Below, piece after piece: positions 233-26,512 of a DNA stretch of 38,416 nucleotides. The position numbers were made by a program, and so were the translations under genes. Source of the DNA: Clostridium sp. (lineage in GTDB: Bacteria; Bacillota; Clostridia; Clostridiales; Clostridiaceae); the NCBI GenBank assembly GCA_031292145.1, contig JARLHR010000178.1, positions 1 through 38,416 of the forward strand, in the 5' to 3' direction. Every line of letters begins with the position of its first letter. Within the stretch, counting starts at the first letter, position 1. The notes under the pieces were generated by a model. It worked only from the letters and a program-made list of their open reading frames with translations. It was not told the origin of the DNA and did not search any database.

Positions 233-454
233 TATATCTGCACCAGAAATCACATACATTTGTGTGCAGCAGGCATTTGAAAATTTCGATACTAAAAGCA
301 ATTAGAGGAAGGTTGTTCCACTTTTGCTTGTCCAACCGAATGGTTGGAGCAAGCTGAAGTGGGCGCAACCTTCCTCTTAGTGCTTTCAGCGAAATTTTCA
401 TAGTCCTGTGAAACACAAATGTATTTGATTTCGGTTAGTTATCACATAAGTCTA
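233..454 (+). repeat. Family B foldback repeat, copy B1
   Basis: Long imperfect palindrome centred on the loop GAAT at 338-341 (apical stem CCAACC/GGTTGG). The outer arms are ATACATTTGTGT and ACACAAATGTAT. The right end ATCACATAAGTCTA runs into the SPFH gene and supplies its TAG stop (454-452, minus strand). Two asymmetric internal loops shared with the other copies are present: TT opposite GCG, and T opposite AG. The outermost terminal inverted repeat seen in B3 and B4 is not recognisable on either side. Confidence 0.85.
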
Positions 455-1397
455 TTTTCCACCTTTATTTCCTTTAAGCATTTCCCCAATTGCAGCTATG
501 CTTCCAAGAGATGATAATGTCTCATTTGGTAATATTAGCTTATTAGCTGGATTATTAGCCATTTCTTTAAGAGCTTCGACTTGTTTTAAAGCTATGACAG
601 TTTCATTAGTTCCAGATTCAATGATAGCTTGGTTTACTTTTCTTATTGCCTCTGCTTCTGCAGCTGCTATTTCCTCTATAGCCTTTGCTTTACCTTCCGC
701 TTCTAGCAATTGAGATTCTTTTAAACCTTCTGCCCTTCTTATATTTGCTTGCTTTTCCGCTTCTGCTGATAGTATTTTAGCTTGTTTTTCTCCTTCAGCT
801 TTTTCTATTTGAGATTGTCTTAATCCTTCTGCTTGAAGAATCATAGCTCTTTTATCTCTTTCAGCCTTCATTTGCTTTTCCATTGCTTGCTGGATTTCAG
901 CTGGTGGAACTATGTTTTTAATTTCTACTGAAAGTATTTTTATTCCATATGCATCAGTAACTTCATCAATGATACTTAAAAGATCTTGATTAATAGCATC
1001 TCTTCCTGATAAAATTTCATCTAATGACATATTACCCAATATATTCCTCATGTTAGTTGTAGCTGAATATACCTGATTGAAAGCTTTCTATATTATATAC
1101 TGCATCTCTCGAATTTAATACCTTATAAAATATAACATTATCCACTAATATTTTAACATTATCTTTAGTTATAACTGATTGTGGCTCAACATCTAAAATT
1201 TGTTGTTTAGTAGAAATCCTTTTTCTAACAAAATCTACGAATGGGACAATAAAATGTAACCCTGGTTCTAATACTCTATGAAATTGTCCAAATCTTTCTA
1301 CAACACATACATAACCTGTGTTTACAACTTTTATTGATGATAGTACTACTGCAAATATAAACAGTAAAATTATTCCCAAAACTATAATAACACCCAT
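452..1397 (-). pseudogene. SPFH/Band-7 (stomatin/QmcA-like) protein, frameshifted
   Basis: Two adjacent reading frames make one stomatin-like protein of about 316 residues. The first (1397 to 1053) has an N-terminal membrane anchor and the start of the Band-7 domain (VVERFGQFHRVLEPGLHFI). The second (from about 1074 to 452) carries the rest, including [19 protein letters not shown], and an alanine/glutamate-rich coiled coil of about 100 residues. The frame breaks near 1065-1074, between SGI and YSATTNMRN. Relatives have one extra residue there and a continuous frame, which fits loss of 5 bp, perhaps one copy of a GTATA direct repeat. An AGGAGG ribosome binding site precedes the ATG at 1397, inside the end of the upstream NfeD gene. 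SPFH proteins scaffold membrane microdomains and pair with NfeD. This copy is probably inactive unless translation shifts frame or the base calls are wrong. Confidence 0.85.
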
Positions 1398-1401
1398 AAT
1401 A

Positions 1402-1836
1402 TTAATCCTCCTGAACCTTTTCTATTTTTAATTTAATTCCTTCTATTCCTGTAATAACGAACTTATCCCCTTCATGAATTGTATTGCCATCATTTACTAC
1501 AGTCCAATATTCTCCATTAACCTTTACTTGCGCTTTGTCACCAATTTCCTTTTCGCTTGTCATAACTTTGCCAATATAGGTTTCTTCCATAAGTGGTATG
1601 CTTGTGTGTGCAACTTTAAATTTTTTCTTTAGTAGAGGATAGCCCACTACCAATGAAATTATATTTAATATAGAAAATACAATTATTTGCATTATTAATG
1701 GTAACCCTAAAACACCACATATTGCAGCCCCAACAGCTCCCACTGAGAATAACATAAAGCAAAAATTACTGGTTAAAACATCTATTGCAATTACACAAAA
1801 AGCAACAATTAACCAAAAGACAACCAATCCATTCAT
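1402..1836 (-). CDS. NfeD family membrane protein
   Basis: A 144-residue protein with three or four N-terminal hydrophobic segments (about residues 5-75), then a soluble C-terminal beta-rich NfeD OB-fold domain (about 80-144: IGKVMTSEKEIGDKAQVKVNGEYW). This is the short NfeD1b form without a ClpP-like protease domain. Such genes are typically paired with an SPFH gene, as here, where the downstream SPFH start lies 4 bp beyond this stop. I chose the second ATG (1836) because the GGGGGG Shine-Dalgarno touches the first ATG (1842) but lies 6 bp from the second. Family knowledge suggests a role in membrane organisation with its SPFH partner. Because that partner is frameshifted, this gene may now act alone or be relict. 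Confidence 0.85.
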   Translation of the reverse strand: MNGLVVFWLIVAFCVIAIDVLTSNFCFMLFSVGAVGAAICGVLGLPLIMQIIVFSILNIISLVVGYPLLKKKFKVAHTSIPLMEETYIGKVMTSEKEIGDKAQVKVNGEYWTVVNDGNTIHEGDKFVITGIEGIKLKIEKVQED

Positions 1837-2083
1837 CTTCATCCCCCCTTAATAATGTACTAAATATTGTCAAACTTAGTATATTACTTTTAACTCAAAT
1901 ATAAAAGCATTACATGTAATAAATTTATTATACATCCATAAAAATATTTATTCAAGGTATTTTTTATTATTTAATGAGTTATTAAATACTACTTTTTTTG
2001 ATTTTACTACATAATTATATTCTAATATGTTAGTATATAATTATTACTAATATAATAAAGTTATTTTTATGAGGAGTGATCAC

Positions 2084-3982
2084 ATGGATTTTATCAAAGT
2101 TGCTGCAGCTTGCCCTAAAACGAGGGTTGCAGATATTGACTATAATGTAGAAAATATTTTATTATGCATAAATGATGCAAATAAAGACGGAAATAAATTT
2201 ATAGTTTTCCCTGAACTTTGCATTACCTCTTATACTTGTGGAGATTTATTTTTACAAGAATACTTAATTAATAAATCTTTAACTGGTATTAAACAAATAT
2301 TAGATGCTACTAAGGATAATGATATTTTAATTGCTGTTGGTTCTCCCCTTCTTTATGGCAGCACTTTATATAATTGCGCATTTTTATTGTTTAAAGGAAA
2401 TGTTCTAGGAATAGTACCAAAATCTTTCCTTCCAAATTATAGTGAGTTCTATGAAAAACGATGGTTTACGGAAGGGCTTTCTGTAGAGAATGAAAAAGTA
2501 GATTTACCTTTTCAACAAGACGTTGCCTTTGGTACAAACTTAATTTTCGCATCTGATGTTGCAAGTTTTGGAATTGAAATCTGCGAAGACTTATGGGTAG
2601 CAATTCCACCTAGTTCGTATCTTTCTCTTATGGGTGCTCATATAATTGGAAATCTTTCTGCCTCAAATGAGCTTGTAAGCAAAATGGATTATAGAAAAAG
2701 CCTTATTTCAAATCAAAGTGCTAGAACAATGTGTAGTTATATATATTCCTCTGCTGGAGTTCATGAATCTACTACTGATGTGTTATTTAGCGGTCATTTA
2801 CTAATAAGTGAAAATGGTTCATTGTTAAAAGAAAATAATAGATTCCAACGAGAAAATGAAGTCATTTCTTCTATAGTTGATGTATTTAAATTAAAGGCTG
2901 AAAGGATGAAAAACCTTAGTTTTAGAGATTCATCTAAATTCATAAATAAAAAGCCTAATGTAATTAAATTTGAATTTAGTGATTTATCAGTTAAAGATTT
3001 CGATAGATTTATAGATAAACATCCTTTTGTACCTTCTTATGAAAAAGAAAGAGAAGTAAGATGTAAAGAAATATTTAATATTCAAGCTGCCAGCTTGGCT
3101 AAAAGATTAGAGCATACAAAATCTAAAAAAGCCGTAATAGGAATTTCAGGTGGATTAGACTCAACTCTTGCACTACTTGTAATAGTTAAAACTTTTGAAT
3201 TACTTAATTTAGATAAGAAAAATATTGTAACTATAACTATGCCTGGCTTTGGTACTACTGATAGAACTTATAATAATGCTATTAATCTATGCAAAGAATT
3301 AGGTACTGATTTAAGAGAAATTAATATTGTTAAAGCATCTCTTCAACATTTTGAGGATATTGGTCATAATAAGGATATTCATGATGTTACTTATGAAAAT
3401 GTTCAAGCAAGAGAAAGAACCCAAATTTTAATGGATCTTGCTAACAAAGAAAGGGGTCTTTTAATAGGTACTGGTGATTTATCAGAACTTGCTCTTGGCT
3501 GGTGTACTTATAATGGAGATCATATGTCAATGTATTCTGTAAATCCTTCTATTCCTAAAACGCTTGTTAGATATTTAGTACAATATGTAGCTCAAAATGA
3601 ATCTACAGAAATTATCTGTGACATACTTATGGATATTTTAGATACACCAGTTAGTCCTGAACTATTACCTAAAGATGAGAATGGTGAAATAGCCCAAAAG
3701 ACAGAAGATATTGTAGGTCCTTACGAACTTCATGATTTCTTCTTATATCATTTTATAAAACACGGCTCTGCAAAAGAAAGAATATATTTCTTAGCTAAAG
3801 CTGCATTTAAAGATGATTATTCTGAAGAAGAAATACAAAAATGGCTTGATAAATTTATGTTTAGATTCTTTACACAACAATTTAAAAGAAGTGCTCTTCC
3901 TGATGGCCCTAAGGTAGGAAGTATTTCCCTAAGCCCAAGAGGTGATTGGCGTATGCCATCTGACGCTGCACCCTGGAATTAA
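2084..3982 (+). CDS. nadE: Glutamine-dependent NAD+ synthetase
   Basis: A two-domain enzyme of 632 residues that makes NAD+ from nicotinate adenine dinucleotide, ATP and glutamine-derived ammonia. The N-terminal nitrilase-type glutaminase domain (about 1-270) shows the catalytic Glu in FPELCITSY, Lys in PKSFLPNY and Cys in GIEICEDLW. The C-terminal synthetase domain has the PP-loop GISGGLDSTLALLV near residue 355 and the later GTGDLSELALGW motif. An upstream in-frame ATG at 2069 overlaps the GAGGAG ribosome binding site (2071-2076), so the ATG at 2084, 7 bp after it, is the better start. The gene stands alone, with a hairpin terminator at 4040-4076. Length is normal for the fused glutaminase form. 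Confidence 0.96.
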   Translation: MDFIKVAAACPKTRVADIDYNVENILLCINDANKDGNKFIVFPELCITSYTCGDLFLQEYLINKSLTGIKQILDATKDNDILIAVGSPLLYGSTLYNCAFLLFKGNVLGIVPKSFLPNYSEFYEKRWFTEGLSVENEKVDLPFQQDVAFGTNLIFASDVASFGIEICEDLWVAIPPSSYLSLMGAHIIGNLSASNELVSKMDYRKSLISNQSARTMCSYIYSSAGVHESTTDVLFSGHLLISENGSLLKENNRFQRENEVISSIVDVFKLKAERMKNLSFRDSSKFINKKPNVIKFEFSDLSVKDFDRFIDKHPFVPSYEKEREVRCKEIFNIQAASLAKRLEHTKSKKAVIGISGGLDSTLALLVIVKTFELLNLDKKNIVTITMPGFGTTDRTYNNAINLCKELGTDLREINIVKASLQHFEDIGHNKDIHDVTYENVQARERTQILMDLANKERGLLIGTGDLSELALGWCTYNGDHMSMYSVNPSIPKTLVRYLVQYVAQNESTEIICDILMDILDTPVSPELLPKDENGEIAQKTEDIVGPYELHDFFLYHFIKHGSAKERIYFLAKAAFKDDYSEEEIQKWLDKFMFRFFTQQFKRSALPDGPKVGSISLSPRGDWRMPSDAAPWN

Positions 3983-4016
3983 ATGAATAATAAATAATTA
4001 ATTATTCATTATTCAT
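3983..4016. repeat. AT-rich perfect-type palindrome after nadE
   Basis: A 34-bp palindrome directly following the nadE stop codon. It begins ATGAATAATAAATAATT and ends AATTATTCATTATTCAT, with one mismatched pair. It is followed by short direct repeats of ATTCATC up to about 4027. It could form a cruciform or RNA hairpin. It has no coding role that I can see. Confidence 0.7.
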
Positions 4017-4039
4017 CATTCATCATTAATTTAAAAAAC

Positions 4040-4076
4040 TTCCACTTTTTGCACTGAATTGTGGAATTTTTTTTTT
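4040..4076 (+). terminator. Rho-independent terminator of nadE
   Basis: Stem TTCCAC (4040-4045) / GTGGAA (4061-4066) with a 15-nt loop, followed by a run of ten T residues. It separates nadE from ilvE, which therefore probably has its own promoter in 4077-4146. Confidence 0.7.
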
Positions 4077-4146
4077 AGTAGTGCTAAAATAGATGTTATT
4101 AATCAAACAACGGCAATAAGCCTATACAGATATGGAGGAATAGAAA

Positions 4147-5175
4147 ATGGGGAAAAAGATAGATATCGATTGGAGTAAATTAGGATTTGATTATATAAAA
4201 ACAGATCTTCGTTATATTTCAATTTGGAAAGATGGAAAATGGGATGAAGGAAAACTTACTGAAGACAATATGCTTCATATGAGCGAAGCTTCAACAGTTC
4301 TTCATTATGGTCAAAGTAGTTTTGAAGGTTTAAAAGCTTACAGAACTAAAGACGGAAAAGTACAATTGTTTAGACCAGACAGGAATGCTGCTCGTATGAA
4401 TGAAAGCTGCGACAAACTTCTTATGCCGCATGTTCCTGAAGAAAAATTTATCGATGCTGTTATGCAAGTTGTAAAAGCTAATATAGATTATGTACCGCCA
4501 TACGGTACTGGTGCTACTTTATATATAAGACCTGTTATCATGGGTGTTGGACACAATATCGGAGTTAAACCTGCTCCAGAATATATATTTACAGTATTCT
4601 GTATGCCAGTAGGACCTTATTTCTCTGGTGGATTAAAACCTTGTAGCTTCATTGTTCAAGATGAATTTGATAGAGCTGCACCTAATGGAACTGGTAAGCA
4701 AAAAGTTGGAGGTAACTATGCTGCATCGTTAGAAGCTCATGCTAAAGCAGTTGCAGATGGATATGCAGATTGTATTTACTTAGATCCAGCAACTCATACA
4801 AAAATTGATGAAGTTGGTGCTGCAAACTTTATTGGAATTACTAAAAACAATGAATTCGTTACGCCAAAATCGTCTTCAATTTTACCAAGTATAACTAAAT
4901 ATTCTTTATTACATATCGCTGAACATTATTTAAATATGCCAGTATATGAAAGAGAAGTTTTTGTTGATAAATTAGATGAATTTAAGGAAGCTGGTGCTTG
5001 TGGTACTGCCGCTGTAATAACACCAATCGGAGCTATTGACTATAATGGTAAGAGATATGTATTCCACAGTGAAACTGAAGTAGGTCCTACAATAAAAAAA
5101 TTATATGACATTCTTTGCGGAATTCAACTTGGTGATGTTGAAGCTCCAGAAGGTTGGATATACGAAGTAAAATAA
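4147..5175 (+). CDS. ilvE: Branched-chain amino acid aminotransferase
   Basis: A 342-residue class IV (fold type IV) PLP-dependent aminotransferase that interconverts leucine, isoleucine and valine with their 2-oxo acids, using glutamate/2-oxoglutarate. Visible signatures are [14 protein letters not shown] near residue 53, the catalytic lysine region [18 protein letters not shown] near 181-198, and DEVGAANF near 222, all typical of the IlvE subgroup of about 340-360 residues. The ATG is preceded by TGGAGGAAT (GGAGG at 4133). It sits between the nadE terminator and foldback repeat B2, whose end begins about 14 bp after the stop, so it is probably transcribed alone. Confidence 0.95.
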
Positions 5176-5189
5176 TAAGTCACATAAAA

Positions 5190-5440
5190 AATAGAGATAT
5201 TCAACACGTAATCTATACTTATGTGATAACTTAACGAAATCAAATACATTTGTGTTACACAGGACTATGAAAATTTCGCTGAAAGCACTAAATGGGAGCT
5301 TGCACCAACTTTAGCTTGCTCCAGCCAAACGGCTGGACAAGCTAAAGTTGAACAAGCTCCCATTAAGTGCTTTTAGCATCGAAATTTTCAAATGCCTGCT
5401 ACACACAAATGTATTTGATTTCTAGTGCAGATATCCACCT
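5190..5440 (-). repeat. Family B foldback repeat, copy B2 (inverted)
   Basis: Inverted copy relative to B1, centred on the loop AAAC at 5327-5330 (apical stem CCAGCC/GGCTGG). Outer arms ATACATTTGTGT / ACACAAATGTAT match B1, but the inner arms differ from B1 on both strands: AATGGGAGCTTG pairs with CAAGCTCCCATT, whereas B1 has AGAGGAAGGTTG with CAACCTTCCTCT. Both asymmetric internal loops are preserved. The end next to ilvE carries ATAGAGATATTCAACACG, a variant of the terminal inverted repeat seen in B3. The far end is not clear. The rest of the ilvE-5628 gap (5441-5627) is AT-rich promoter-like DNA. Confidence 0.85.
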
Positions 5441-5627
5441 AAAGCCTAGTAAATGTACATAAACATTTCAACAACAAGCTCAATGTACGTAATATTTTTC
5501 AAAATATATTATAATAATCTTAGCGTAAAACTATAGTCTAGTAACAAATAGTAATTTATGGTGAACAACAGTAAGTTTTTCTGAATATAATACTAAATTC
5601 ACTAGGTATAAGAGTAGGAGTGGTAAA

Positions 5628-5924
5628 GTGAGAATTTTAAAATATCATTTGTTTCCAGAGGCATATGGCTCTAATGGAAAATTTGTGTCTAAAGAAGGTA
5701 CTGTAAGTAATTTAATAATTGATACTGGAATGCTTTTAAATTTGGATGTGGATAAAGTAATTCCTAAACTTAATACATTAAATAAAATGTTTTTACAAGG
5801 TGAGTATCCTCGTGCTGGGGAGTGGGAACCTTTTGAAATCACACAAGAAGAATATCAAGGGTTAGTAAATCACTTATGTTCTTTACCTTTATCAAGACCA
5901 TATAGAACTCTTGAGAATACATAA
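5628..5924 (+). CDS. Small protein of unknown function
   Basis: A 98-residue predicted soluble protein that I do not recognise. It starts at a GTG, with an AGGAG ribosome binding site 7 bp upstream (5616-5620), which supports it being a real gene. The sequence is of mixed composition with no signal peptide, membrane segment or cysteine motif. The C-terminal half contains PRAGEWEPFEITQEEYQGLV, suggesting an ordered, slightly acidic fold. It lies alone between foldback repeat B2 and another small orphan gene at 6026. No function can be assigned. Confidence 0.65.
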   Translation: MRILKYHLFPEAYGSNGKFVSKEGTVSNLIIDTGMLLNLDVDKVIPKLNTLNKMFLQGEYPRAGEWEPFEITQEEYQGLVNHLCSLPLSRPYRTLENT

Positions 5925-6025
5925 TAGTTTGCTTTTAAATAATACGCAAATTTCTTAAAGCATGCAATAATAGTAAATTATTGTGAATTTTGTTAAATCT
6001 CTACAATATAAGGTGGATGTATAAA

Positions 6026-6367
6026 ATGGATATAGGAACAATTTTAATTTTGTCACTGCTTCTATTTGTGATAATATATTTTTCAGTTAGGTTAGCAATT
6101 AATCCATTGTTAAACAAGACAGAAAAAATAATCACTGAAAATAATGATGTTGGATTAGTTAAGTTACGGGATATAGAAATATTAAGTGATGCTGAACTTG
6201 AGCAAGTAATAAAATTATATAAAAATAAAAGTGTTGAAAAAAAAGACTATGAGCAGTATCAAAAATATGAAAAAGTCTTAAATGAATTGAAGGAGATTGA
6301 ATATTTATCTGTTGAACAATATTCAAGTAAGGTTAACAAACTTAAAAGGTATTTCAAAGTTGATTAG
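6026..6367 (+). CDS. Small single-pass membrane protein, unknown
   Basis: A 113-residue protein with one N-terminal transmembrane segment (about residues 4-27, ILILSLLLFVIIYFSVRLAI) and a charged, helical cytoplasmic tail rich in Lys and Glu (for example EIEYLSVEQYSSKVNKLKRYF). An upstream in-frame TTG (5990) would add 12 residues. The ATG at 6026 is preferred because AAGGTGG lies 9 bp before it. I do not recognise the family. It is 101 bp downstream of the 98-residue orphan, on the same strand, and about 90 bp upstream of repeat B3. Confidence 0.6.
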   Translation: MDIGTILILSLLLFVIIYFSVRLAINPLLNKTEKIITENNDVGLVKLRDIEILSDAELEQVIKLYKNKSVEKKDYEQYQKYEKVLNELKEIEYLSVEQYSSKVNKLKRYFKVD

Positions 6368-6453
6368 TATTTGATTTGTGCACATTTTTCTTATATTAAG
6401 CATTATAGTTAGACAATATCACCTGCAATTTTTTAAGTCTACATTTCAACATT

Positions 6454-6772
6454 ATATAGATATCCAAATTTCATACTAGACCTATTACTGATAAAATATT
6501 CTAATAAAAAGTTATACTTAAAAGCATATACAAACAAAGAAATTAGAGATACATGTTTATGCAGCAAGCATTTGAAAATGAGCTGTCAAAAGCACTTAGC
6601 TGAAGGTTGTTCCACTTATGCTTGTCTAAATGAATATTTGGAGCAAGCATAAGTGGGTGCAACCTTCTGCTTAGTGCTTTCAGCGCAATTTTCATAGTCT
6701 TGCGAAATAAACATGTATCTAATTTCGGTTGATTGCGCTTAAGTCTATATTTCGTGTTGGATATCTATATTA
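6454..6772 (+). repeat. Family B foldback repeat, copy B3 (full length)
   Basis: The clearest complete copy, about 320 bp. It is bounded by the terminal inverted repeats ATATAGATATCCAA (to 6467) and TTGGATATCTATAT (6757-6770). The central palindrome has its loop GAAT at 6632-6635, apical stem CTAAAT/ATTTGG and outer arms AGATACATGTTTAT / ATAAACATGTATCT. The latter replace the ATACATTTGTGT pair of B1/B2 on both sides. Just left of it (6435-6453), TTTAAGTCTACATTTCAAC resembles a further right-end fragment. With its flanks it fills the 529-bp gap between the genes at 6026 and 6897. Confidence 0.85.
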
Positions 6773-6896
6773 AAACACAGCTTTTTATTTTTAAAAATAC
6801 AAATTATACTTCTAAGTTTTTATAATTGTAATACGATAATATAAATAATAATTATTTTATAGAAACTAGAATAAAAAATATAAGGGGAGTGGTAAT

Positions 6897-7340
6897 ATGT
6901 CTAGTAGTAAAGTAACTTCTATCAACAAATATACTGTGGGTAATATTTCTAAGATTTCTACTAATACTTCCATAACCAAAAGACCATATGATAACACTTC
7001 TTTTTCTTCTGGCAAAAGAGATGAGAAATCTAAGTCTTTTAAAAATACTTTAAAATCATCAACTTCAAAAGAATCATCAGATGATAAAACTGATGATTTT
7101 GCTAGCTTACTTAGCAATGAACTAAATGATAGATTAATTTTAGATAGCAGAGAAACCTTAAGAGTTATTCATACAAATTTTGATAACACTCATTCAACTG
7201 AAACTAATTCTAATCCCAAAACTGATTCTCCTGAATTACACGCCAAGCTTAGAGACGCTATGAAAGTAGAAGTTGATACTTCTGAGATATATAAGAAACT
7301 CCAACTATTAAAGGCTATAAAAGCAGATTCTAATAAATAA
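6897..7340 (+). CDS. Low-complexity Ser/Thr/Lys-rich protein, unknown
   Basis: A 147-residue hydrophilic protein, probably largely disordered in its first 80 residues (runs of Ser, Thr, Lys and Asp). A more regular helical C-terminus follows (SPELHAKLRDAMKVEVDTSEIYKKLQLLKAIKA). There is no signal peptide or membrane segment. The AAGGGGAG ribosome binding site sits 7 bp before the ATG, and a good terminator follows, so it is probably expressed. Its composition resembles small clostridial flagellar- or spore-associated proteins only in a general way. I assign no function. Confidence 0.6.
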   Translation: MSSSKVTSINKYTVGNISKISTNTSITKRPYDNTSFSSGKRDEKSKSFKNTLKSSTSKESSDDKTDDFASLLSNELNDRLILDSRETLRVIHTNFDNTHSTETNSNPKTDSPELHAKLRDAMKVEVDTSEIYKKLQLLKAIKADSNK

Positions 7341-7343
7341 AGC

Positions 7344-7388
7344 GAAGGTTGCCCCAAAGTTAATTTCTTCTTTAGGACAACCTTTGTT
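7344..7388. terminator. Bidirectional terminator
   Basis: Inverted repeat AAGGTTG (7345-7351) / CAACCTT (7378-7384), with additional CCC/GG and AAG/CTT pairing inside, between the convergent genes at 6897 (+) and 7392 (-). T-rich flanks on both strands suit termination in both directions. Confidence 0.65.
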
Positions 7389-7391
7389 TAT

Positions 7392-9098
7392 CTATACCGC
7401 TGCAAGTTCATGTAATTTTCTATATGCACCTTGTTTTTTAATCAATTCTTCATGAGTCCCCTTTTCCATTATTCCATTACTTCCAAGAACAATTATTTCA
7501 TCCGCATTTTTAATTGTTGATAACCTATGTGCTACTACTATGGTAGTTCTTCCAGCGCACAATTTTTCTAATGATTCTTGAATTATACGTTCAGTTGCAT
7601 TATCTAATGCAGATGTTGCTTCATCTAGTATTAATATTGGTGGGTTTTTAAGAAAAACTCTAGCAATTGAAATACGTTGTTTTTGACCTCCAGATAATTT
7701 TACTCCTCTTTCTCCAATATATGTATCATAACCTTCTGGTAACGTACTTATAAATTGATGAATATTAGCCATTTTAGCTGCCCTTATTAATTCTTCTTCC
7801 GTTGCATCAGCTTTTCCAAATAGGATATTATCTCTTATAGTTCCAGTAAATAAAAATACTTCCTGTTGAACTATTCCAATGTTCTCTCTAAGTGAATCTA
7901 ATTTAATATCATAAATGCTATTGTTATCTATTAAAATATCTCCACTTTCAACTTCATAAAATCTTGGAATAAGATTGCAAAAAGTTGTCTTCCCACCACC
8001 GGAAGCTCCAACTAAAGCTAACATTTTACCTTTTTCAATTTTTGCCGATATATCATCTAATACTTTTTTCCCCTCATAGCTAAATACAACATTTCTAAAC
8101 TCAATTTCTCCATGTACCTTATTTAATTCGATGGCATCTTTTTTATCACTTTCTTGTTCAGCATTCATAATTTCCATATATCTTTGAAACCCTGTTATTC
8201 CATTTTGGAATTGCTCCATAAAATCAATTAACTTCTTTATTGGAGTAATAAATGAGTTTATGTATAACATATAAGCCATATAATCTCCAATACTTATTAA
8301 TCCAATAAAAGTGAATATACCTCCACCTATTAATCCTACATAATTAAGAATATCCATTCCAAATCCTGCTCCAGAAGAATATTCAGCCATCACTTTATAT
8401 GCCTTCTCTCTTGCATTAATAAACTTTGCATTCCCCTTTTCAAACTTTTCCTCTTCAGCTTTGTGACTTACAAATGCCTTTGATATTTTTATTCCTGAAA
8501 TGCTGTTTTCTAAATTAGCATTTACTAATCCTGTTTTAACTTTTGTATCAAAAAATGCTTTATTCATTTTATTTCTTTCAAATAAAGTAAACCATATTAT
8601 AAAAGGTACAAATGCAAAAATCAATAATGTAAGTGATATATTTATGGTACATAATATTATAAATGATCCTATAAGCATAACAATAGAAATAAATAAATCT
8701 TCAGGGCCATGATGAGCAAGTTCTGAAATATCCATTAAATCATTGATAATTCTAGACATTATATCACCAGTCTTATTATTATCAAAAAAACTATTAGGTA
8801 ATTTTTGAAGATGGGTAAATATATTTTTTCTCATATCCCCCTGCATTCTAACTCCAACAACATGTCCCCAATATTGCATGAAGTATCCACATGCAGCTTT
8901 TATAAAAAAGATGATTAACAATGTAATACCAAAAATAATAATTGTTCTAAATTCTCTATTAGGAATAGAGTTATTAATTAAGCTCCTTGTCATCATAGGA
9001 TATACTAAATCACATAAAGATGCTATAAATGCAACAATTAAATCAAGTGTAAATAGCAACTTATACGGTTTGTAAAACGAAATAAACTTTTTTATCAA
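7392..9098 (-). CDS. ABC exporter, fused permease/ATPase
   Basis: A 568-residue half-transporter of the MsbA/LmrA/BmrA type. The N-terminal six-helix transmembrane domain (about 1-310) is followed by a nucleotide-binding domain (about 330-568) with Walker A GASGGGKTT, Q-loop IGIVQQEVFLF, signature LSGGQKQR, Walker B ILILDEATSALD and H-loop VVAHRLST. All catalytic motifs are intact, so it should form an active homodimer, or a heterodimer with a partner elsewhere. The substrate cannot be deduced; relatives export lipids, peptides or drugs. It is a single gene with an AAAGGTGAA ribosome binding site. No neighbouring gene points to a cargo. Confidence 0.92.
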   Translation of the reverse strand: MIKKFISFYKPYKLLFTLDLIVAFIASLCDLVYPMMTRSLINNSIPNREFRTIIIFGITLLIIFFIKAACGYFMQYWGHVVGVRMQGDMRKNIFTHLQKLPNSFFDNNKTGDIMSRIINDLMDISELAHHGPEDLFISIVMLIGSFIILCTINISLTLLIFAFVPFIIWFTLFERNKMNKAFFDTKVKTGLVNANLENSISGIKISKAFVSHKAEEEKFEKGNAKFINAREKAYKVMAEYSSGAGFGMDILNYVGLIGGGIFTFIGLISIGDYMAYMLYINSFITPIKKLIDFMEQFQNGITGFQRYMEIMNAEQESDKKDAIELNKVHGEIEFRNVVFSYEGKKVLDDISAKIEKGKMLALVGASGGGKTTFCNLIPRFYEVESGDILIDNNSIYDIKLDSLRENIGIVQQEVFLFTGTIRDNILFGKADATEEELIRAAKMANIHQFISTLPEGYDTYIGERGVKLSGGQKQRISIARVFLKNPPILILDEATSALDNATERIIQESLEKLCAGRTTIVVAHRLSTIKNADEIIVLGSNGIMEKGTHEELIKKQGAYRKLHELAAV

Positions 9099-9202
9099 TT
9101 AAATTCACCTTTCTTTCTCTATAATATGAATAAAACCTTGATAGCTTGTATATACTTTACTGTGATACATAATTTTCCAACTGTAAGGTGGTGATAAATT
9201 TT

Positions 9203-9454
9203 ATGAGAAGATTGTTTTATGTTTTTAATTTTTCATTAGCAATACTATTACCCTTATTCTCATTTAATATAATATTGAGTAAATCCAATCCCGATCATTT
9301 TTTTCCTTTGATTTTTATATGCTTAGGCTTTTGTGATACATTCCTTGGCATAAACTTGCTAAATGCAGATAAAAAAGTTTTAAGTATTTCAAGTTTCATA
9401 CTTGCAAGTTTTTTGTTCATTCTAGTTGGAGCCAAGCTATGCATATATAGTTAG
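9203..9454 (+). CDS. Small multi-pass membrane protein, unknown
   Basis: An 83-residue hydrophobic protein with about three predicted transmembrane segments: FVFNFSLAILLPLF-like near 5-25, FFPLIFICLGFCDTFLGINLL near 32-52, and ISSFILASFLFILVGAKLCIY near 60-82. The ribosome binding site AAGGTGGTG (9185-9193) overlaps upstream in-frame GTG codons at 9188/9191, so I chose the ATG at 9203. It is divergent from the ABC exporter, with which it may share an intergenic promoter region. I do not recognise the family. Confidence 0.6.
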   Translation: MRRLFYVFNFSLAILLPLFSFNIILSKSNPDHFFPLIFICLGFCDTFLGINLLNADKKVLSISSFILASFLFILVGAKLCIYS

Positions 9455-9568
9455 TAACTATATTTACTTGTAGTATTATATCCTAATTGTATTAGTTAAT
9501 AAACTCCCTTTTGCTTTGCTGCCAAAACAAAAACACTGCATCAAACTTACATTTGTGCAATGTTTTAC

Positions 9569-9716
9569 TTAGGCACAACGAAAAATAATAGACCAATATG
9601 CTTGCCTGTTTCGTGCCATACTGCCTCAGTAAAGTCTACTAATATGCCTATATGAGCAGACTTTACTTCCTTGTTTTACACAAAATATTCAGCGCATCTT
9701 TGATCTATTATTTTTT
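9569..9716. repeat. Family A foldback repeat, copy A2
   Basis: Second copy of the A1 element in the same core orientation: TTAGGCACAA, then AAATAATAGACCA, ending TTTGATCTATTATTTTTT. The inner hairpin is GTAAAGTCT / AGACTTTAC. In A1 the same place holds AAATTGCG / CGGAATTT, so both strands changed together. The loop segment CTAATATGCC is close to A1. It ends about 8 bp from the stop of the cysteine-rich gene at 9724, so it forms that gene's 3' region. Confidence 0.75.
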
Positions 9717-9723
9717 CACCTTA

Positions 9724-10164
9724 TTACTTAGAATTATATTTCTCAAAAATCTTATCAGCTACATTGTTATTCATTTCTTTTAGCTTATTTAAATAAAGAA
9801 ATGTACTTCCTTGATATTCTTGTTCTTCCCCCAACAGAGCTATCTCATAGGAATTTCTTAATATACTTATTATACAGTTATCAAAGTGCTCTTCAGTACA
9901 GCTTTTACAGGCTTTTAAAGTTTCAACTATTCCATCAAGTAAAAATTCTCTTTCATATACTTTGAAATCTGTACTTGGTATCTCTTCTCTTCCATTTTCA
10001 ACAAATGTAACCTTATTAATCATACAACTTTTTATACATTCTTTAGCATATGCAACAATGCATTTTTCTTTTTCACAACTTCCACATACTTCTTCTGATA
10101 AACAGCAGGGAGTTAATTTGTCTACTAACTTACTAAAGTTCACATCTTTAAATAAAACACTCAT
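9724..10164 (-). CDS. Cysteine-rich protein of unknown function
   Basis: A 146-residue soluble protein with about eleven cysteines, ten of them in its first two-thirds. They include CC near 19-20, CGSCEKEKC near 27-35, ECIKSC, and a later CKSC plus one C in HFDNCIIS. The spacing suggests metal or Fe-S cluster binding, but no standard ferredoxin or zinc-ribbon pattern is complete. GGGG precedes the ATG by 7 bp. It stands alone, with family A repeat A2 directly after its stop. Such cysteine clusters are common in anaerobe regulatory or electron-transfer proteins. I infer metal binding only and do not recognise the family. Confidence 0.7.
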   Translation of the reverse strand: MSVLFKDVNFSKLVDKLTPCCLSEEVCGSCEKEKCIVAYAKECIKSCMINKVTFVENGREEIPSTDFKVYEREFLLDGIVETLKACKSCTEEHFDNCIISILRNSYEIALLGEEQEYQGSTFLYLNKLKEMNNNVADKIFEKYNSK

Positions 10165-10268
10165 ATAAAATCCCCTTATTCATACAATTTATTTTTAAAT
10201 AATAATTATTATTTAAACTATACCTTATAATAGAAATTTTTTCAATATTTTATTTTTAGAGAATAGAT

Positions 10269-10937
10269 CTAAATTCCATCTAATATTTTATCCTTATAAT
10301 TTTCCAAATCACCATTAAACACCCCTGCTATTTCAACAGGTTTATTGTTGAATACAAATATATTTCCCCGGAAATATATTGCTTCATCTAAATCATGGGT
10401 AACTAATATTACCATTCTTTTTTCTTTTTTAAGTAAATTTTTAAATTCATCAATTATGGTATATTTCAATTTATAGTCCAATGATTTAAACGGCTCATCC
10501 ATCAGAATTACCTTTGACGGTTTGCCAAATGCTCTTGCTATATTAACTCTTTGTCTCATTCCTCCGCTTAGTGCATTTGGAAACTTGTTTTTAATATCGT
10601 AAATACCAACTAAATTTAAAATCTCATCTACTTTAGCATCAATAACTGATTTATTATAATATTTCTTTAAAGTAATTTCTAAATTTTCTTTAACTGTAAG
10701 CCAATCTATTAATCTATCTTCTTGAAAAACATAGCTTATATCACTTAATGATATTCCATTTATTTCTCCACCTTGTATTTCTGTCAATCCTGCTATAATG
10801 TTCAAAAGAGTGCTTTTTCCGCACCCTGACTTTCCTACTATACAATTTATATTATCATCACAAAAGTTTATATTAAAATTTTTAAAAATCTCTTCATTTC
10901 CATAGGATTTATTTAAATTTCTAATATTTATATTCAT
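10269..10937 (-). CDS. ABC importer ATPase (SsuB/TauB-like)
   Basis: A 222-residue ATPase with Walker A GKSGCGKST near residue 35, Q-loop YVFQEDRLIDW, signature LSGGMRQR, Walker B VILMDEPFKSLD and H-loop VTHDLDEA. The EDRLIDW Q-loop and the short length are typical of the nitrate/sulfonate/taurine importer ATPase group. Its ATG overlaps the permease stop by 4 bp (ATGA), indicating translational coupling as the last gene of a three-gene operon. It energises uptake of the ligand bound by the lipoprotein at 11664-12665. Confidence 0.93.
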   Translation of the reverse strand: MNINIRNLNKSYGNEEIFKNFNINFCDDNINCIVGKSGCGKSTLLNIIAGLTEIQGGEINGISLSDISYVFQEDRLIDWLTVKENLEITLKKYYNKSVIDAKVDEILNLVGIYDIKNKFPNALSGGMRQRVNIARAFGKPSKVILMDEPFKSLDYKLKYTIIDEFKNLLKKEKRMVILVTHDLDEAIYFRGNIFVFNNKPVEIAGVFNGDLENYKDKILDGI

Positions 10938-11689
10938 TTATTCCACCTATATATTTTTTTGTATAATAATTTATTTATTATCTCTAAACCTAGCGATATA
11001 ATAACAATAATTACAATCCAAGCAAAAATTCCGGGAGTATTAAAGTTCACTTTTTCTAATTGTATCTGAGATCCTATACCAAACTTTGGCTGACCATGCA
11101 CTTCCCCAGCGATTACTACCTTAAACGTAAGGGAAAATGTTGATACGAAAATACTCATAAAATAAAACTTCATTACAGGAATATATACTTTTTTAATTTT
11201 ATCAGTTAAACTCACTTCATATACTTTAGTCATTTCAAGTATCTTCTTATCTATTTGCAAAAGATTATTCCTTATTCCTTCATATAATATTGGCAATATT
11301 ATTGCAAACCCAACAACAAAAGGAGTCTTTTCTTTATCAAACCAAACTAATGAAAGTACGACAAGTACCATTGTAGGAATTGTTTTTCCAAAGGAATTAA
11401 TGGGTTCCATTAAATACTTAAAAAAGGGATACACAACTGAGAGTACCCCTAAAATCATTGATAAAACCAAAGCTGCCACATAACTTAAGAGAGTTCTATA
11501 AAAACTACTTAAAATTATCTGCCAGAAATTTTTACTATTAAAAATTTCTTTAGTAGCTTCAATTATTTGCTCTAATCTTGGTATATATATATCGTTATTT
11601 ATTATTACAGCAATTAACTGCCATATTCCTATAAAAAATATACATGATAAGAAAGTATATATTTTACTTTTCCATGAATATTTCATCAT
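10934..11689 (-). CDS. ABC importer permease (SsuC-like)
   Basis: A 251-residue BPD-type inner-membrane permease with about six transmembrane helices. The cytoplasmic EAA-like coupling region lies near residues 145-165 (LQIDKKILEMTKVYEVSLTDKIKKVYIP). Its start lies inside the end of the substrate-binding protein gene, with a GGAGGAAAGG ribosome binding site in the coding sequence of that gene, and its stop overlaps the ATPase start. The family (SsuC/TauC/ThiX-like) imports sulfonates, taurine, nitrate or pyrimidine precursors. The ligand here is not determined. Confidence 0.9.
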   Translation of the reverse strand: MMKYSWKSKIYTFLSCIFFIGIWQLIAVIINNDIYIPRLEQIIEATKEIFNSKNFWQIILSSFYRTLLSYVAALVLSMILGVLSVVYPFFKYLMEPINSFGKTIPTMVLVVLSLVWFDKEKTPFVVGFAIILPILYEGIRNNLLQIDKKILEMTKVYEVSLTDKIKKVYIPVMKFYFMSIFVSTFSLTFKVVIAGEVHGQPKFGIGSQIQLEKVNFNTPGIFAWIVIIVIISLGLEIINKLLYKKIYRWNK

Positions 11690-12665
11690 CTGGTACCTTT
11701 CCTCCTATTGTCTTTGGATCAAATGCATTTAATTTTTCAAAATATATTTTATATTCTTTAGTACAATCTTTAATACCTACATATTTTAGATTTGATTTAT
11801 CAACAGCCTTTATTACTATTGGCTTTTTAGCTGAAACTCCTATTTCTTCACAATAATCTCCTAGGGTTTCTTTATTGTTATTTGCCCACTTTTCCACTTC
11901 CTCAACCTGTTTTAATAGTTCATTTACAAATTCTTTATCATTTTCACATAATTCTTTTTTAACTATAATTGTTGATTGAGGATATCCATATTGTGAATTA
12001 TTTATCTTTTTCCATTCTTCATTTAAATCTAACATTATATTAAACTTATCATTTTTACTTTGTACAGTAGATAAAGCTGGTTCTGGTATTACTGCATATT
12101 GGGTTTTTCCTGCTAAAATTATTGGAGCTAATTCATTTACTGTATTTACATAACTAAAATTAATATCTTTATCAATATCAATCCCTTTATCTTTAAGTAT
12201 TGCTCTTGCAATTATATCAGGCGTTAATCCCTTTCCTATGTTATAAATTTCTTTCCCTTTTAAATCATTTATAGTTTGATTTTCATTGGTAGTTCCTATA
12301 TAAAAGGATCCAAAACCTATAGTTCCTGCTATCTTATATTCTTGATTTTTATTATATACAGTAGCCGCTACATTTGAAGGTACAATTGCCACGTCTGGCT
12401 CACTCTTCATAACACTCGTAACTAAGCTGTCAGAACTCTGCTCAATAGTATAATTAATATCATATCCCGATTTAATTTCTGGCTTCTCTTTTATAAGCTT
12501 AGCTACTGCCATAGCTGTAAGTCCATCTGGTGTTACAAATTTTATATCCTTAGTTTCTGTACTTTGCTTCTTAGACTCATTTTGAGCTGCATTATTATTT
12601 CCACATCCCATAAATGTTAATATTGATAATACTATAACTAACAATAATGATAATTTCTTTTTCAT
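11664..12665 (-). CDS. ABC importer substrate-binding lipoprotein (NMT1/SsuA-like)
   Basis: A 333-residue secreted protein. The N-terminal signal peptide ends in a lipobox-like FMGC (Cys near residue 21), followed by an Asn/Gln/Ser-rich linker and a type II periplasmic-binding fold of the NMT1/THI5-SsuA class (DIKFVTPDGLTAMAVAKLI; later LKGKEIYNIGKGLTPDIIAR and AVIPEPALSTV). It is the first gene of an operon with the permease (overlap 26 bp) and ATPase. A promoter with an upstream inverted repeat precedes it. No thiamine, SAM or other riboswitch was found upstream, so the ligand remains open: a sulfonate, sulfur source, pyrimidine or other small molecule. Confidence 0.9.
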   Translation of the reverse strand: MKKKLSLLLVIVLSILTFMGCGNNNAAQNESKKQSTETKDIKFVTPDGLTAMAVAKLIKEKPEIKSGYDINYTIEQSSDSLVTSVMKSEPDVAIVPSNVAATVYNKNQEYKIAGTIGFGSFYIGTTNENQTINDLKGKEIYNIGKGLTPDIIARAILKDKGIDIDKDINFSYVNTVNELAPIILAGKTQYAVIPEPALSTVQSKNDKFNIMLDLNEEWKKINNSQYGYPQSTIIVKKELCENDKEFVNELLKQVEEVEKWANNNKETLGDYCEEIGVSAKKPIVIKAVDKSNLKYVGIKDCTKEYKIYFEKLNAFDPKTIGGKVPDDEIFMEK

Positions 12666-12758
12666 TTTTAATTCCCCCTTTAAAAGCTCCGTTCCTTACC
12701 ATTATAATAAATCAATTTTATTATTGTAATAGTAATTAATTAATATTTACTCTTACTT

Positions 12759-12843
12759 ATAATATCATACTAAAAAAGAAATACCAAATTTAAGTTCCTT
12801 CATACATCAAAGAAGACATGTCTTAACCCTCTTAAAACATGTC
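12759..12843 (-). promoter_or_regulatory. Promoter and inverted repeat before the ABC importer operon
   Basis: Read on the minus strand there is a -35 TTGGTA (12787-12782), a 17-bp spacer and a -10 TATTAT (12764-12759). Upstream of the -35 is the inverted repeat GACATGT (12815-12821) / ACATGTC (12837-12843), flanked by TTAA. This is a plausible binding site for a dimeric regulator of the importer. The regulator is not identifiable. The promoter assignment rests on consensus match only. Confidence 0.45.
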
Positions 12844-12901
12844 CTAAATATATGATAATTGATTTATTAATATTCATAATACACTTTTATTTTATACTGC
12901 C

Positions 12902-13207
12902 TAATATAGATAAACAATTTCATATCAGGATAACATCCCAATGAGAAATTATACTTTTAAGCATATATAAACAAAGAAATGAGATACATGTTTATGAAGC
13001 AGGCATTTGAAAACGAGCTGTTAAAAGTACTTAAAGGATGGTTGTTCCAATTAAGCTTGTCACACTGAAAGTGGGAGCAAGCTCAATTGGGTGCAACCTT
13101 CCTTTTAGTACTTTCAGCGATATTTTCATAGCCCTGCGGAATAAACATGTATCTCATTTCGGTTAATTATGATAAAGTCTGGAATACATGTTGGCTATCT
13201 ATATATA
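12902..13207 (+). repeat. Family B foldback repeat, copy B4 (full length)
   Basis: Full-length copy with terminal inverted repeats TAATATAGATA-CAA (from 12902) and TTGGCTATCTATATATA (13191-13207). The central loop is GAA at 13067-13069, apical stem CACACT/AGTGGG, and outer arms GAGATACATGTTTAT / ATAAACATGTATCTC. A middle arm pair AAAGTAC/GTACTTT replaces the AAAGCAC/GTGCTTT of other copies. Its right terminal repeat encodes the last two residues and TAG stop of the yaaR gene. It fills most of the gap between that gene and the ABC importer. Confidence 0.85.
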
Positions 13208-13614
13208 TCAACAATCATGCCTTGTATTTCATCTATTGTTGATGCCATATTAATATTGTCTTTTTCATCCGAAAGAAGCCCCCTAGTCAATTCTTCCAGC
13301 TTTCCATCAATGGTATCAACAGTTATAAAATATTGAGTTTGCCAAAAGCTAATATCTTTTTTTGTTTCATACATAAATTTTAATATTGATTCTAAATATT
13401 CTTTTATCATTTTCTTATACATAATCACATCAACATAAGTTTTAGTAGTTACAAGCTTGCTCCCTCTTTTTTTGATATCATCTATCATTTTATTAAGCTG
13501 TTCTTCAGACTTTTTTTGTCTTTCTCTATTAAAGCTTCCAGAAAAATCTTTCTTTTCTGAAATAATTTTTCTTTCTGAAGTTATAGTTCCTCTTCTTACT
13601 CTTCCAATTTCCAT
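13195..13614 (-). CDS. yaaR: YaaR family protein (DUF327)
   Basis: A 139-residue soluble helical protein with the YaaR/DUF327 pattern: DFSGSFNRERQKKSEEQLNKMIDDIKKRGSKL near 23-54, then YKKMIKEYLESILKFMYE, and a C-terminal ELTRGLLSDEKDNINMASTIDEIQGMIVDIY. Function is unknown. The family is widespread in Firmicutes, often near yaaQ and holB, which is not the case here. AGAGGTGAAT precedes the ATG. The last codons (Tyr, Arg, stop) lie inside the terminal inverted repeat of B4, so the natural C-terminus has apparently been replaced, without loss of the conserved domain. Confidence 0.85.
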   Translation of the reverse strand: MEIGRVRRGTITSERKIISEKKDFSGSFNRERQKKSEEQLNKMIDDIKKRGSKLVTTKTYVDVIMYKKMIKEYLESILKFMYETKKDISFWQTQYFITVDTIDGKLEELTRGLLSDEKDNINMASTIDEIQGMIVDIYR

Positions 13615-13853
13615 ATATTCACCTCTTTCTTAACTTAAGGTATACTGGTATTTAAAATTAATTATATCAAAATTCTACTTTTTTCTCTACTTATATTATG
13701 ACATTGTACTATTTTAATTATGATTTTTTATGAATATTACCAATTTTTTTTTATGTTTACTATTATGGTTGAAACGATTACTTATCTATAATAAAATTTA
13801 TTTTAATAAGGTATATTTCTTATGCCTTAATGAATTTATAGGAGGTAACAAAT

Positions 13854-14156
13854 ATGATAGTAAAATGTATTGATAATAATCTTTGTTCAACATTAACTTT
13901 AAATAAGGAATATGTGGTTATAGAGGAAGCACCTGAATATTATGTAATTCTTGATGACAAAAGTGAAGAAACAACTTGCAGAAAAACAAGATTTGAGGTT
14001 ATTGAAGATGGTGGTTTAACTAAAAAGACAAAAGCTACTATTACAGAACTAAATTATCAAATAGAAAATAACTTTAAAGATATTAAGCAATTTTCAATCA
14101 GAAAAAATTCTAAAGGTGAAATCAAAGAAATATCAGTAAAATTCAAATACAACTAG
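13854..14156 (+). CDS. Small protein, phage-like KOW/SH3-type N-terminus
   Basis: A 100-residue soluble protein with a strong AGGAGG ribosome binding site 8 bp before the ATG. The first half (VKCIDNNLCSTLTLNKEYVVIEE, later TTCRKTRFEVIEDGG) follows the pattern of short beta-barrel proteins found in phage and Firmicute genomes, with a conserved VKCIDN start and RFEVIE end. The second half is charged and may be a small alpha-beta extension. I can only call it a hypothetical protein. Its TAG stop (14154-14156) abuts the end of foldback repeat B5. Confidence 0.65.
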   Translation: MIVKCIDNNLCSTLTLNKEYVVIEEAPEYYVILDDKSEETTCRKTRFEVIEDGGLTKKTKATITELNYQIENNFKDIKQFSIRKNSKGEIKEISVKFKYN

Positions 14157-14375
14157 CGATAACTACCGAAAACAGAAACATTTTTATTTCGTAGGGCTAT
14201 GAAAATTTCGCTGGAAGGTTCTAAATGGCAGGTTATACCCATTTCTACTTGCTCCAAATGTAAAATTTGGACAAGTAGTAAATGGAACAACCTGCCATTA
14301 AGAACCTTCTGCAGCTCATTTTCAAATGCCTACTGCACAAAAATGTTTCTGTTTTCTAGTTCAGTTATGCTCTTA
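14157..14375 (-). repeat. Family B foldback repeat, copy B5 (inverted)
   Basis: Inverted, diverged copy with loop GTAAA at 14260-14264 and apical stem CCAAAT/ATTTGG. Its outer arms (CAGAAACATTTTT / AAAAATGTTTCTG) and middle arms (GAAGGTTC / GAACCTTC) differ from all other copies but remain complementary. The internal loop T opposite AG is intact, and the second loop is TT opposite GTA. It begins directly at the stop codon of the preceding gene. Confidence 0.8.
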
Positions 14376-14395
14376 AGTTTCATGAACATAAAAAT

Positions 14396-14633
14396 CCTGC
14401 GCCTTCCTCTAAGTGCTTTTAGCATCAAAATTTTCAAATGCCTATTACACACAGATGGTCTAATTTCTTTGTTTGTAGATATACCAAAGCATATAAAATT
14501 CGGACAAGTAATAAATAGGACAACTTCTACTGTTAGAAATCTGCAGCCATATTCTCTAGCAACCGAGCAACAGACTACCAGTTATTTCGGTAGGTTCTGG
14601 CATAAGTCTAGAGTACATGTTGGTTATCTATAT
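14396..14633. repeat. Rearranged family B fragments, B6
   Basis: A mosaic of family B pieces. One inverted left arm (CTAAGTGCTTTTAGCATC, then AATTTTCAAATGCC) is followed by a B5-like inner segment (CGGACAAGTAATAAATAGG) and a right end in direct orientation (CATAAGTCTAGAGTACATG, then TTGGTTATCTATATC). The right terminal repeat supplies the TAG stop of asnB (14630-14628). The foldback can no longer form fully. With B5 it occupies the whole 471-bp gap before asnB. Confidence 0.7.
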
Positions 14634-16516: not shown

Positions 16517-16650
16517 CTGAAAAAAGTGCGACAGCACAATCACGATCTTTTACACCTTTAAAAAAAGTGCGACAGCACAATCAAAAACTTCACACCACTA
16601 AAAAAGTGAGACAGCACAACCAAGATCTTTTACATTTATAAAAAAATGCA
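16517..16650 (-). repeat. Triple 40-bp tandem repeat in the asnB leader
   Basis: Three units begin at 16526, 16567 and 16606 (spacing 41 and 39 bp). Each has GTGCGACAGCAC (GTGAGACAGCAC in the third), followed by similar AATCA- and TTTACA-containing sequence and an A-run. On the asnB-sense strand each reads GTGCTGTCGCACTTTTTT: a 4-bp stem, 4-nt loop and T-run, like a mini-terminator. It lies 45-180 bp upstream of asnB within the 312-bp gap to the divergent spoVAF-like gene. The inter-repeat sequence is similar between units, so this is not a CRISPR array. Confidence 0.7.
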
Positions 16651-25624: not shown

Positions 25625-26506
25625 ATGAAAAAAACTTACTATATAAAAAAGATATATTTATTACTTTCCATAGCATTCTTTATATTTTCCATTTTCACAA
25701 TTGGTTGTAATCCTTTTGTAGCTAATTCATCACAAAATATTAAACCTGATCCCAATATGATGTTGGTACATTATATAGATGTAGGGCAAGGAGATAGTAT
25801 CCTCATTCAAGTGAACAATAAAAATCTTTTAATAGATTCAGGACCTAAATCTGATGAAAATAAACTCTTTAGTTATTTATCCAATCTGCATTTAGATAAA
25901 TTAGACTATATAATTGCAACCCATCCTCATGATGATCACATTGGAAATATGGCTGAAGTGATAAAAAAATATGATGTTTCAAGATTTTATGCTCCAAAGG
26001 TTGAATCTACAACAAAAACTTTTGAGAAAATGGTTGATGCATTAAAAGGTAAGAATTTAAAAATAAATGTAATAAAGAAAGGTACAAATTCTATTGATTT
26101 AGGTGAAAATACTAAGATCACTGTCTTCTCCCCTTCTAAGGCTTCTTATGAAGATATAAACAACTATTCACCTGTTATAAAAATAGAATATGGCAACACC
26201 TCGTTTTTGTTTACTGGAGATGCTCAGGCAGACGTAGAAAAAGATATACTCTCTACTAATGAAGATATTAGAGCAGATGTCTTAAAGATTGGTCATCATG
26301 GATCATCAACTTCTACCAGTATGAATTTTCTTAGCAAAGTAAATCCATCTATATCAGTAATTTCTGTAGGTAAAGATAATATTTATAATCACCCTAATGA
26401 AAATACTATTAAGCATCTAAATGAAAAAAATATAACAATATATAGAACCGATCAAGATGGAACAATACTTCTTTGTTCTGATGGCTCTAAAATTACTAGG
26501 AAATAA
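25625..26506 (+). CDS. Secreted ComEC/Rec2-type metallo-beta-lactamase hydrolase
   Basis: A 293-residue exported protein. The N-terminal signal segment ends near IFTIGC (possible lipoprotein Cys near residue 28), followed by a metallo-beta-lactamase domain of the ComEC/Rec2 C-terminal type: MLVHYIDVGQGDSILIQ, THPHDDHIGNM (metal ligands), FLFTGDAQ and KIGHHGSSTSTS. All metal ligands are present. The Competence_B membrane domain of ComEC is missing, so this is the standalone extracellular form. Related proteins may degrade DNA or other phosphodiesters at the cell surface. AAGGAG lies 13 bp before the ATG. Its stop lies about 6 bp from family B fragment B7. Confidence 0.88.
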   Translation: MKKTYYIKKIYLLLSIAFFIFSIFTIGCNPFVANSSQNIKPDPNMMLVHYIDVGQGDSILIQVNNKNLLIDSGPKSDENKLFSYLSNLHLDKLDYIIATHPHDDHIGNMAEVIKKYDVSRFYAPKVESTTKTFEKMVDALKGKNLKINVIKKGTNSIDLGENTKITVFSPSKASYEDINNYSPVIKIEYGNTSFLFTGDAQADVEKDILSTNEDIRADVLKIGHHGSSTSTSMNFLSKVNPSISVISVGKDNIYNHPNENTIKHLNEKNITIYRTDQDGTILLCSDGSKITRK

Positions 26507-26512
26507 ATACTC

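Follow-up and report, generated by a model that had tools for sequence, protein, structure and literature searches.

What kind of element is the foldback repeat that occurs five times in a 38,416-nucleotide stretch of Clostridium sp. (contig JARLHR010000178.1; the whole stretch is called the window here), and why do the arms of its copies differ in sequence and still pair? The sequence-only reading of this DNA had described the repeat, named family B, as keeping its structure by paired changes around two fixed asymmetric internal loops, and had argued for selection on a folded RNA or single-stranded DNA (ssDNA). The five hairpins which it had located are all present and share one imperfect fold. 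We find that family B is a non-autonomous DNA transposon, a miniature inverted-repeat transposable element (MITE). It is probably of the IS630 type and mobilised in trans, carrying as payload an imperfect hairpin whose fold may aid the spread or the tolerance of the element. Genomes are given by our numbers; G000 is the window's own genome, G021 is C. neonatale LCDC 99-A-005 and G022 is Clostridium sp. CMCC3677.

The units of G000 and G008 are about 285–340 bp long, have terminal inverted repeats (TATAGATANCCAA..TTGGNTATCTATA, with inner TAGACTTAT/ATAAGTCTA) and contain the hairpin as their core. The whole element with its terminal repeats is larger than what the sequence-only reading had seen. 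The end pattern is matched 80 times in G000 and 24 times in G008, and the reversed control pattern is not matched at all. Some units adjoin one another, with TATA common to both. No transposase gene is present in the units, and those of 285–340 bp hold no gene of any kind. C. neonatale has a longer unit of about 750–900 bp, whose terminal repeat is different from that of G000 and G008 and which reads in the order terminal repeat, minus-strand hairpin, spacer, plus-strand hairpin, terminal repeat. In the two C. neonatale units checked the spacer is without a sizeable open reading frame (ORF), and the ORFs of at least 40 codons pass through the hairpins and reach at most 61 codons. Judged by eye, the two hairpins of one such unit differ in sequence type. 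Units like this long form are also found in G008. The payload would be an imperfect hairpin, of which the long form carries two that are inverted relative to each other. Related units also contain another type of hairpin, GTTGTTCCAAATGTGCTAG.. (L130 15247–16031, L122 501–1217 of G008 and L342 517–820 of G040).

Evidence for mobility comes from the comparison of G008 and G040 over 400 kb, the two being 95.9% identical over the aligned parts. Seven of the 22 G008 hairpins, some of them weak, lack a corresponding hairpin in G040 (1117308, 1127400, 1201203, 1332112, 1446157, 1453254 and 1469897), and for one insertion the empty site is clean and shows a duplicated TA of two bases (G008 1332094–1332226 against G040 1356717). 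Several of the other gaps between these genomes hold genes or other DNA, and the other element gaps are not clean. At G040 1341711–1342035 there is an element where G008 has only TATATATATCTATA (at 1317574), perhaps a trace of excision or deletion. In the window one copy, B2, begins about 17 bp past the stop codon of ilvE; when the gap 3′ of ilvE was inspected by eye in 12 relatives (470 bp shown), element-like inserts of other sequence were seen in G043, G008 and G041, that of G043 lying near the stop codon and that of G041 being without a hairpin.

The hairpin comprises about 70 pairs and is imperfect, with bulges at set places. A copy from the window, B1, folds at −100.3 kcal/mol compared with −40.7 for shuffled sequences (standard deviation (sd) 3.75; z = −15.9), and the full-length copy B3 folds with z = −11.7. 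We drew the common plan as two strands from ten hand-picked hairpins of five genomes and counted its features by eye. The apical stem varies; one base is bulged in CTTGTCC/GGAGCAAG (nine of the ten hairpins) and another in TTGTTCCA/TGGGTGCAA (eight of the ten), and CTTA/TTAG forms a small internal loop, which is a single T.T in four of the ten. The exceptions to the two asymmetries come from G022 and G005. The two loops described before are not formed as such: the T opposite AG pairs with the A and leaves the G bulged, and the TT opposite GTG forms wobble pairs around one bulged base. Among 22 aligned hairpins from six genomes the TTGT of CTTGTC and the GGA of GGAGCAA are invariant columns; 19 hairpins have G as the bulged base, two have A and one has T. 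Most motif positions are thus kept across six genomes with diverged stems; the loops are, however, not absolutely fixed, since two of the 22 have an extra base opposite or beside the G bulge and two of the ten drawn hairpins are without the second asymmetry.

The paired changes which the sequence-only reading had pointed out prove to be above chance both within the genome and across species. In the own-genome alignment (A2), which holds 28 of the 33 copies collected by then, with L006, L007, L009, L016 and L020 left out, standard pairs make up 97.8% of the pair cells and 30 of the 71 pairs have changed on both sides; shuffling gave a mean of 12.1 and reached this number in 0 of 500 cases, and sliding the pair partners yields only 4–6 two-sided pairs. 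Across six genomes 18 of 30 pairs have changed on both sides (reached in 1 of 500 shuffles), with a covariation score of 0.521 compared with 0.210 (sd 0.015) for shuffles; alignments A3 and A5 are hand-picked subsets. As the copies are related to one another, we reconstructed the changes by parsimony on trees and simulated neutral change along these trees starting from the consensus, with 60 neutral runs for each of three sets: 118 copies from G000, 36 from C. neonatale and 60 from G008 and G040 together. The first two sets were collected by a motif search that tolerated at most three mismatches and required an arm-pairing score of 30 or more, so that paired copies with the motif are favoured; the third holds the 60 unique sequences among the 69 full-length matches of 111. 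Double changes that keep a pair number 162, 38 and 57 in these sets (always in the above order), and the neutral maxima are 19, 14 and 16.

The trees also show where the structure is kept. On internal branches the ratios of kept to lost pairs are 221:80, 72:15 and 66:19, and at the tips 216:162, 58:55 and 114:102, giving internal/tip odds of 2.07, 4.55 and 3.11 with neutral maxima of 1.64, 2.45 and 2.06. In G000 internal branches hold a smaller share of the changes in the motif columns (39, with 92 at tips) than of those in the other columns (565, with 700 at tips; p = 0.001); the counts for C. neonatale (9 and 24 compared with 152 and 215) go in the same direction and are not significant (p = 0.14). 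Pair states unique to one G000 copy comprise 23 GT, 25 AC, 65 other mismatches and 19 compensated pairs. Furthermore, three pairs of copies which sit at the same place in two species about 96% identical have ten one-sided and no two-sided changes at paired positions. One of these pairs (G008 1244605) has the opposite orientation in G040 and may stem from a separate insertion; if it is dropped, five one-sided and no two-sided changes remain. Two more alignments (G008 1231409 and 1168263), which are 64% and 51% identical, were taken to compare different copies and kept out of the same-place pairs; two-sided changes that keep the pair number 18 and 7 in them. At the inverted place the same 312-bp element is present in L136 4541–4852 (G008 1244541–1244852) and in G040 1266624–1266939 in opposite orientation and about 97% identical, reflecting either an inversion in place or two insertions.

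The fold thus seems to matter for spreading and not for resident copies, because pairs are kept more on internal branches than at the tips, and resident copies do not keep them. The earlier argument for selection on an RNA or ssDNA structure is partly supported, in so far as covariation is above chance and most of the motif is kept, but resident copies decay; selection, if it acts, acts on the lineages that spread. Judging from the branch statistics, fold and bulges may matter when new copies arise, and the folded single strand could raise the spread or the tolerance of the element, most simply by binding a factor. A more specific version, that the hairpin is a cis-acting RNA or ssDNA module with a strand-specific bulge motif, a spread-promoting accessory of an IS630-type (DDE) family seen so far in one Clostridium clade, is put forward only tentatively.

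Could the paired changes arise without any selection? One arm might be copied from the other while the palindrome is single-stranded, perhaps at each transposition. Such hairpin-templated correction would account for the many pair-keeping double changes that appear without an intermediate (82 on internal branches and 80 at tips in G000), and 42 of the 118 G000 tips have at least one double change. The other 76 tips have none, however, the same-place pairs contribute none in ten, and most of the bulges survive, which copying would erase. We regard templated correction as unlikely, the 42 tips with a double change leaving it some probability.

For the IS630-type MITE the question of the mover arises. 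The TA targets point to IS630-type transposases. PF13358 was matched in 9 of 15 further genomes, in seven of them above the cut-off, and the match in G040 sits between two hairpin elements. It belongs to an IS630-type element of 1,200 bp (L342 808–2007) with the ends TATAGATATCCAAA..TTTGTTTATCTATA, which contains two frames that overlap, one with HTH_33 (8.3e-15) and the other with DDE_3 (8e-27). IS630 elements commonly use programmed frameshifting. G041 holds a fragment of an IS630-type element at a contig end. When three IS630-type ends (two from G040 and one from the G041 fragment) were compared with eight MITE ends, 8 of the 24 comparisons reached at least 28 of 40 positions, the best one 34, and only 2 of 100,000 random 40-mers from G040 reached 28 against one MITE end. 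An IS630-type transposase may accordingly be what moves family B in trans, as the likeness of the ends suggests. The decayed DDE_3 of G008 was rejected as a partner, having no good matching ends within its 5 kb, and the IS630-type regions of G043, G057 and G052 have no hairpin match. No autonomous copy between paired ends was found in the 3.43 Mb of examined DNA, overlaps included.

A number of observations weigh against family B being an IS630-type MITE with a fold that aids its spread. The TA duplication comes from a single site and a core-deleted copy, and none is readable for C. neonatale. PF13358 has no match in G000 (a draft of 282 contigs), C. neonatale and G022 and only two decayed matches in G008; the mover is therefore either absent there now or was missed. 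The remaining 16 of the 24 end comparisons score 18–27 of 40. The G040 transposase element is without a hairpin, so that its transposase can do without one on the element that encodes it. In alignment A5 (six genomes) further pair types are not above shuffles (108 of 500 reach the value). When restored pairs are dropped, the internal/tip odds are 1.57, 2.99 and 2.09 with neutral maxima of 1.86, 2.53 and 2.07, so that G000, the largest set, falls inside the neutral range. Finally, the strand test was not replicated in one set, since G.T exceeds A.C in two sets only: the counts on internal branches are 31:16, 9:2 and 6:7, which were reached by 2, 1 and 56 of the 60 neutral runs. Pooled, with one set opposite, they are 46:25 on internal branches (p = 0.017) and 139:109 at tips (p = 0.065); the raw counts (232:125 in G000 and 51:24 in 30 copies) were set aside because the copies are related.

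The family is abundant. G000 has at least 150 hairpin matches, at least seven of which are one place read on both strands, and the copy number is well over a hundred; G021 has 85 matches, G022 65 and G005 13. Within the genus, 17 of the 68 genomes contain matches, and a search of 40 genomes found them in six, the own genome included, and in none of the 15 outside the genus. A scan for the exact motif in 84,980 species, each represented by a single genome, which may omit genomes near that of the window, returned 65 stretches, all Clostridium-named or from one Bacillota metagenome bin. Plasmids (two queries) and phages (one query) gave no match. Rfam has no match to the window at gathering scores, and for positions 180–480 at a relaxed threshold only microRNA-precursor models far below gathering appeared; nor did our searches of the open-licence literature find the family. 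The sequence-only reading had not recognised it; its kind, a MITE with IS630-type ends, is known.

We scored the genomic context of 37 hairpins in two 400-kb stretches, copies at the same place being counted in both. All 37 are intergenic, outside any ORF of 100 codons or more; none lies in a divergent gap (such gaps make up 12–13% of the intergenic bases), and 28 are nearest to the 3′ end of a gene. This location would suit a cis-acting RNA used by the host as terminator, stabiliser or RNase III site in the transcripts of neighbouring genes and kept for the host's benefit, and the palindromic repeats NEMIS and ERIC are described in passages of the literature as acting in mRNA. Yet the hairpins face either way relative to transcription (11 of 32 in codirectional gaps read with the genes), resident copies decay and presence varies between close species, so that we consider a host function of this sort improbable. 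Concerning the chromosome as a whole, the 65 places in G008 among the matches listed are all within 0.96–5.13 Mb of 5.55 Mb, with none in the 25% around base 1 (0–0.95 and 5.13–5.55 Mb), and 28 of these 65 run with the replication fork (p = 0.32, if the origin is placed at base 1).

Least probable of all is a REPIN-like system in which a Y1 transposase (IS200/IS605 or RAYT) recognises the hairpins as ssDNA, for although imperfect hairpins with bulged bases like those of family B are typical of Y1 transposase sites and the C. neonatale units carry two inverted hairpins, the element has inverted ends and a TA duplication, which agree with transposition of the IS630 type. A search for a Y1 mover with PF01797 gave no match in G008 or C. 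neonatale; G000 has a single match, which is interrupted, and G022 and G005 have intact frames. Integron attC sites were considered for their extrahelical bases and set aside on spacing and boxes.

In the window the hairpin of B1 occupies 248–431 (plus strand, core 267–411); its left end is unrecognisable and its right terminal repeat is decayed. B2 (5192–5421, minus strand) has its hairpin at 5237–5421 with the core at 5257–5401 and a degenerate terminal repeat at 5192 (TAGAGATATTCAAC). Complete elements on the plus strand with both terminal repeats are B3 (6455–6769, equal to L038 2699–3013; repeats TATAGATATCCAAA..GTTGGATATCTATA, hairpin about 6545–6724, core 6562–6705) and B4 (12905–13203; hairpin about 12980–13158, core 12997–13139), the right end of B4 overlapping the stop codon of the minus-strand ORF 13195–13614. 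B5, of a divergent subfamily, has its hairpin at 14170–14355 (minus strand, core 14189–14335) and begins directly past the stop codon of the ORF that ends at 14156. The five cores score 119.8–165.3 bits. The arms listed before are present, except that the middle arm of B1 has one mismatch (AAAGCAA/GTGCTTT). In addition there are a weak hairpin fragment at 14378–14447 (minus strand, 16.8 bits, E = 0.043), a right terminal repeat at 14603–14632 (plus strand, no mismatch to the end pattern) and a core-less plus-strand remnant at about 26500–26593, in which the right outer arm occurs twice and a right terminal repeat is present at 26564–26593.

B2 and B3 stand in inverted order (5192–6769) and flank two small ORFs (5628–5924 and 5990–6367) without Pfam match, located between ilvE and another ORF; by eye, a likely homologue of the ORF past B3 comes after ilvE in several relatives. 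A second foldback repeat (AAAATAATAGACC..GGTCTATTATTTT) is present at 1–134 and 9581–9714, with halves 81–84% alike and fold z of −4.8 and −6.1, and an end similar to it adjoins a hairpin in G005 (flank of L081, by eye). At 16520–16646 a repeat of about 40 bp (AAAAAAGTGCGACAGCACAA..) occurs three times in tandem beside the asparagine synthase ORF.

Small palindromic repeats of bacteria are often assumed to fold merely through their inverted ends. The internal hairpin of family B has branch-wise signs of upkeep, which would be expected if the fold helps the element to multiply, and with many copies, many species and a candidate partner transposase the function of MITE hairpins would become directly testable. 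The IS630-type element of G040 is like family B in its ends (best 34 of 40) and unlike it in its 1,200 bp, its transposase frames and the lack of a hairpin core. REP/REPIN palindromes share with family B imperfect hairpins, many copies and an intergenic position; family B is far longer, has terminal repeats and a TA duplication, and there is no Y1 match in G008 and C. neonatale. A review of MITEs does not contain the term "Clostridi" in its main text (PMC10969869). ERIC, Correia/NEMIS and related palindromic MITEs are like family B in their TA termini, intergenic position and long stem–loops; compared by description only, ERIC/IRU has 127 bp and these repeats occur in other hosts (PMC2229807). 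Similar as well is RUP of Streptococcus pneumoniae, a MITE for which IS630-Spn1 is described as the mover and which has TA targets, IS630-type-like terminal repeats, a high copy number and tight folding in common with family B (PMC2229807, PMC3049150). Going by these descriptions only, family B differs from RUP in being longer (285–340 bp, and 750–900 bp in the two-hairpin form) and in carrying its hairpin inside the element as payload, with bulges of the motif that persist from species to species.

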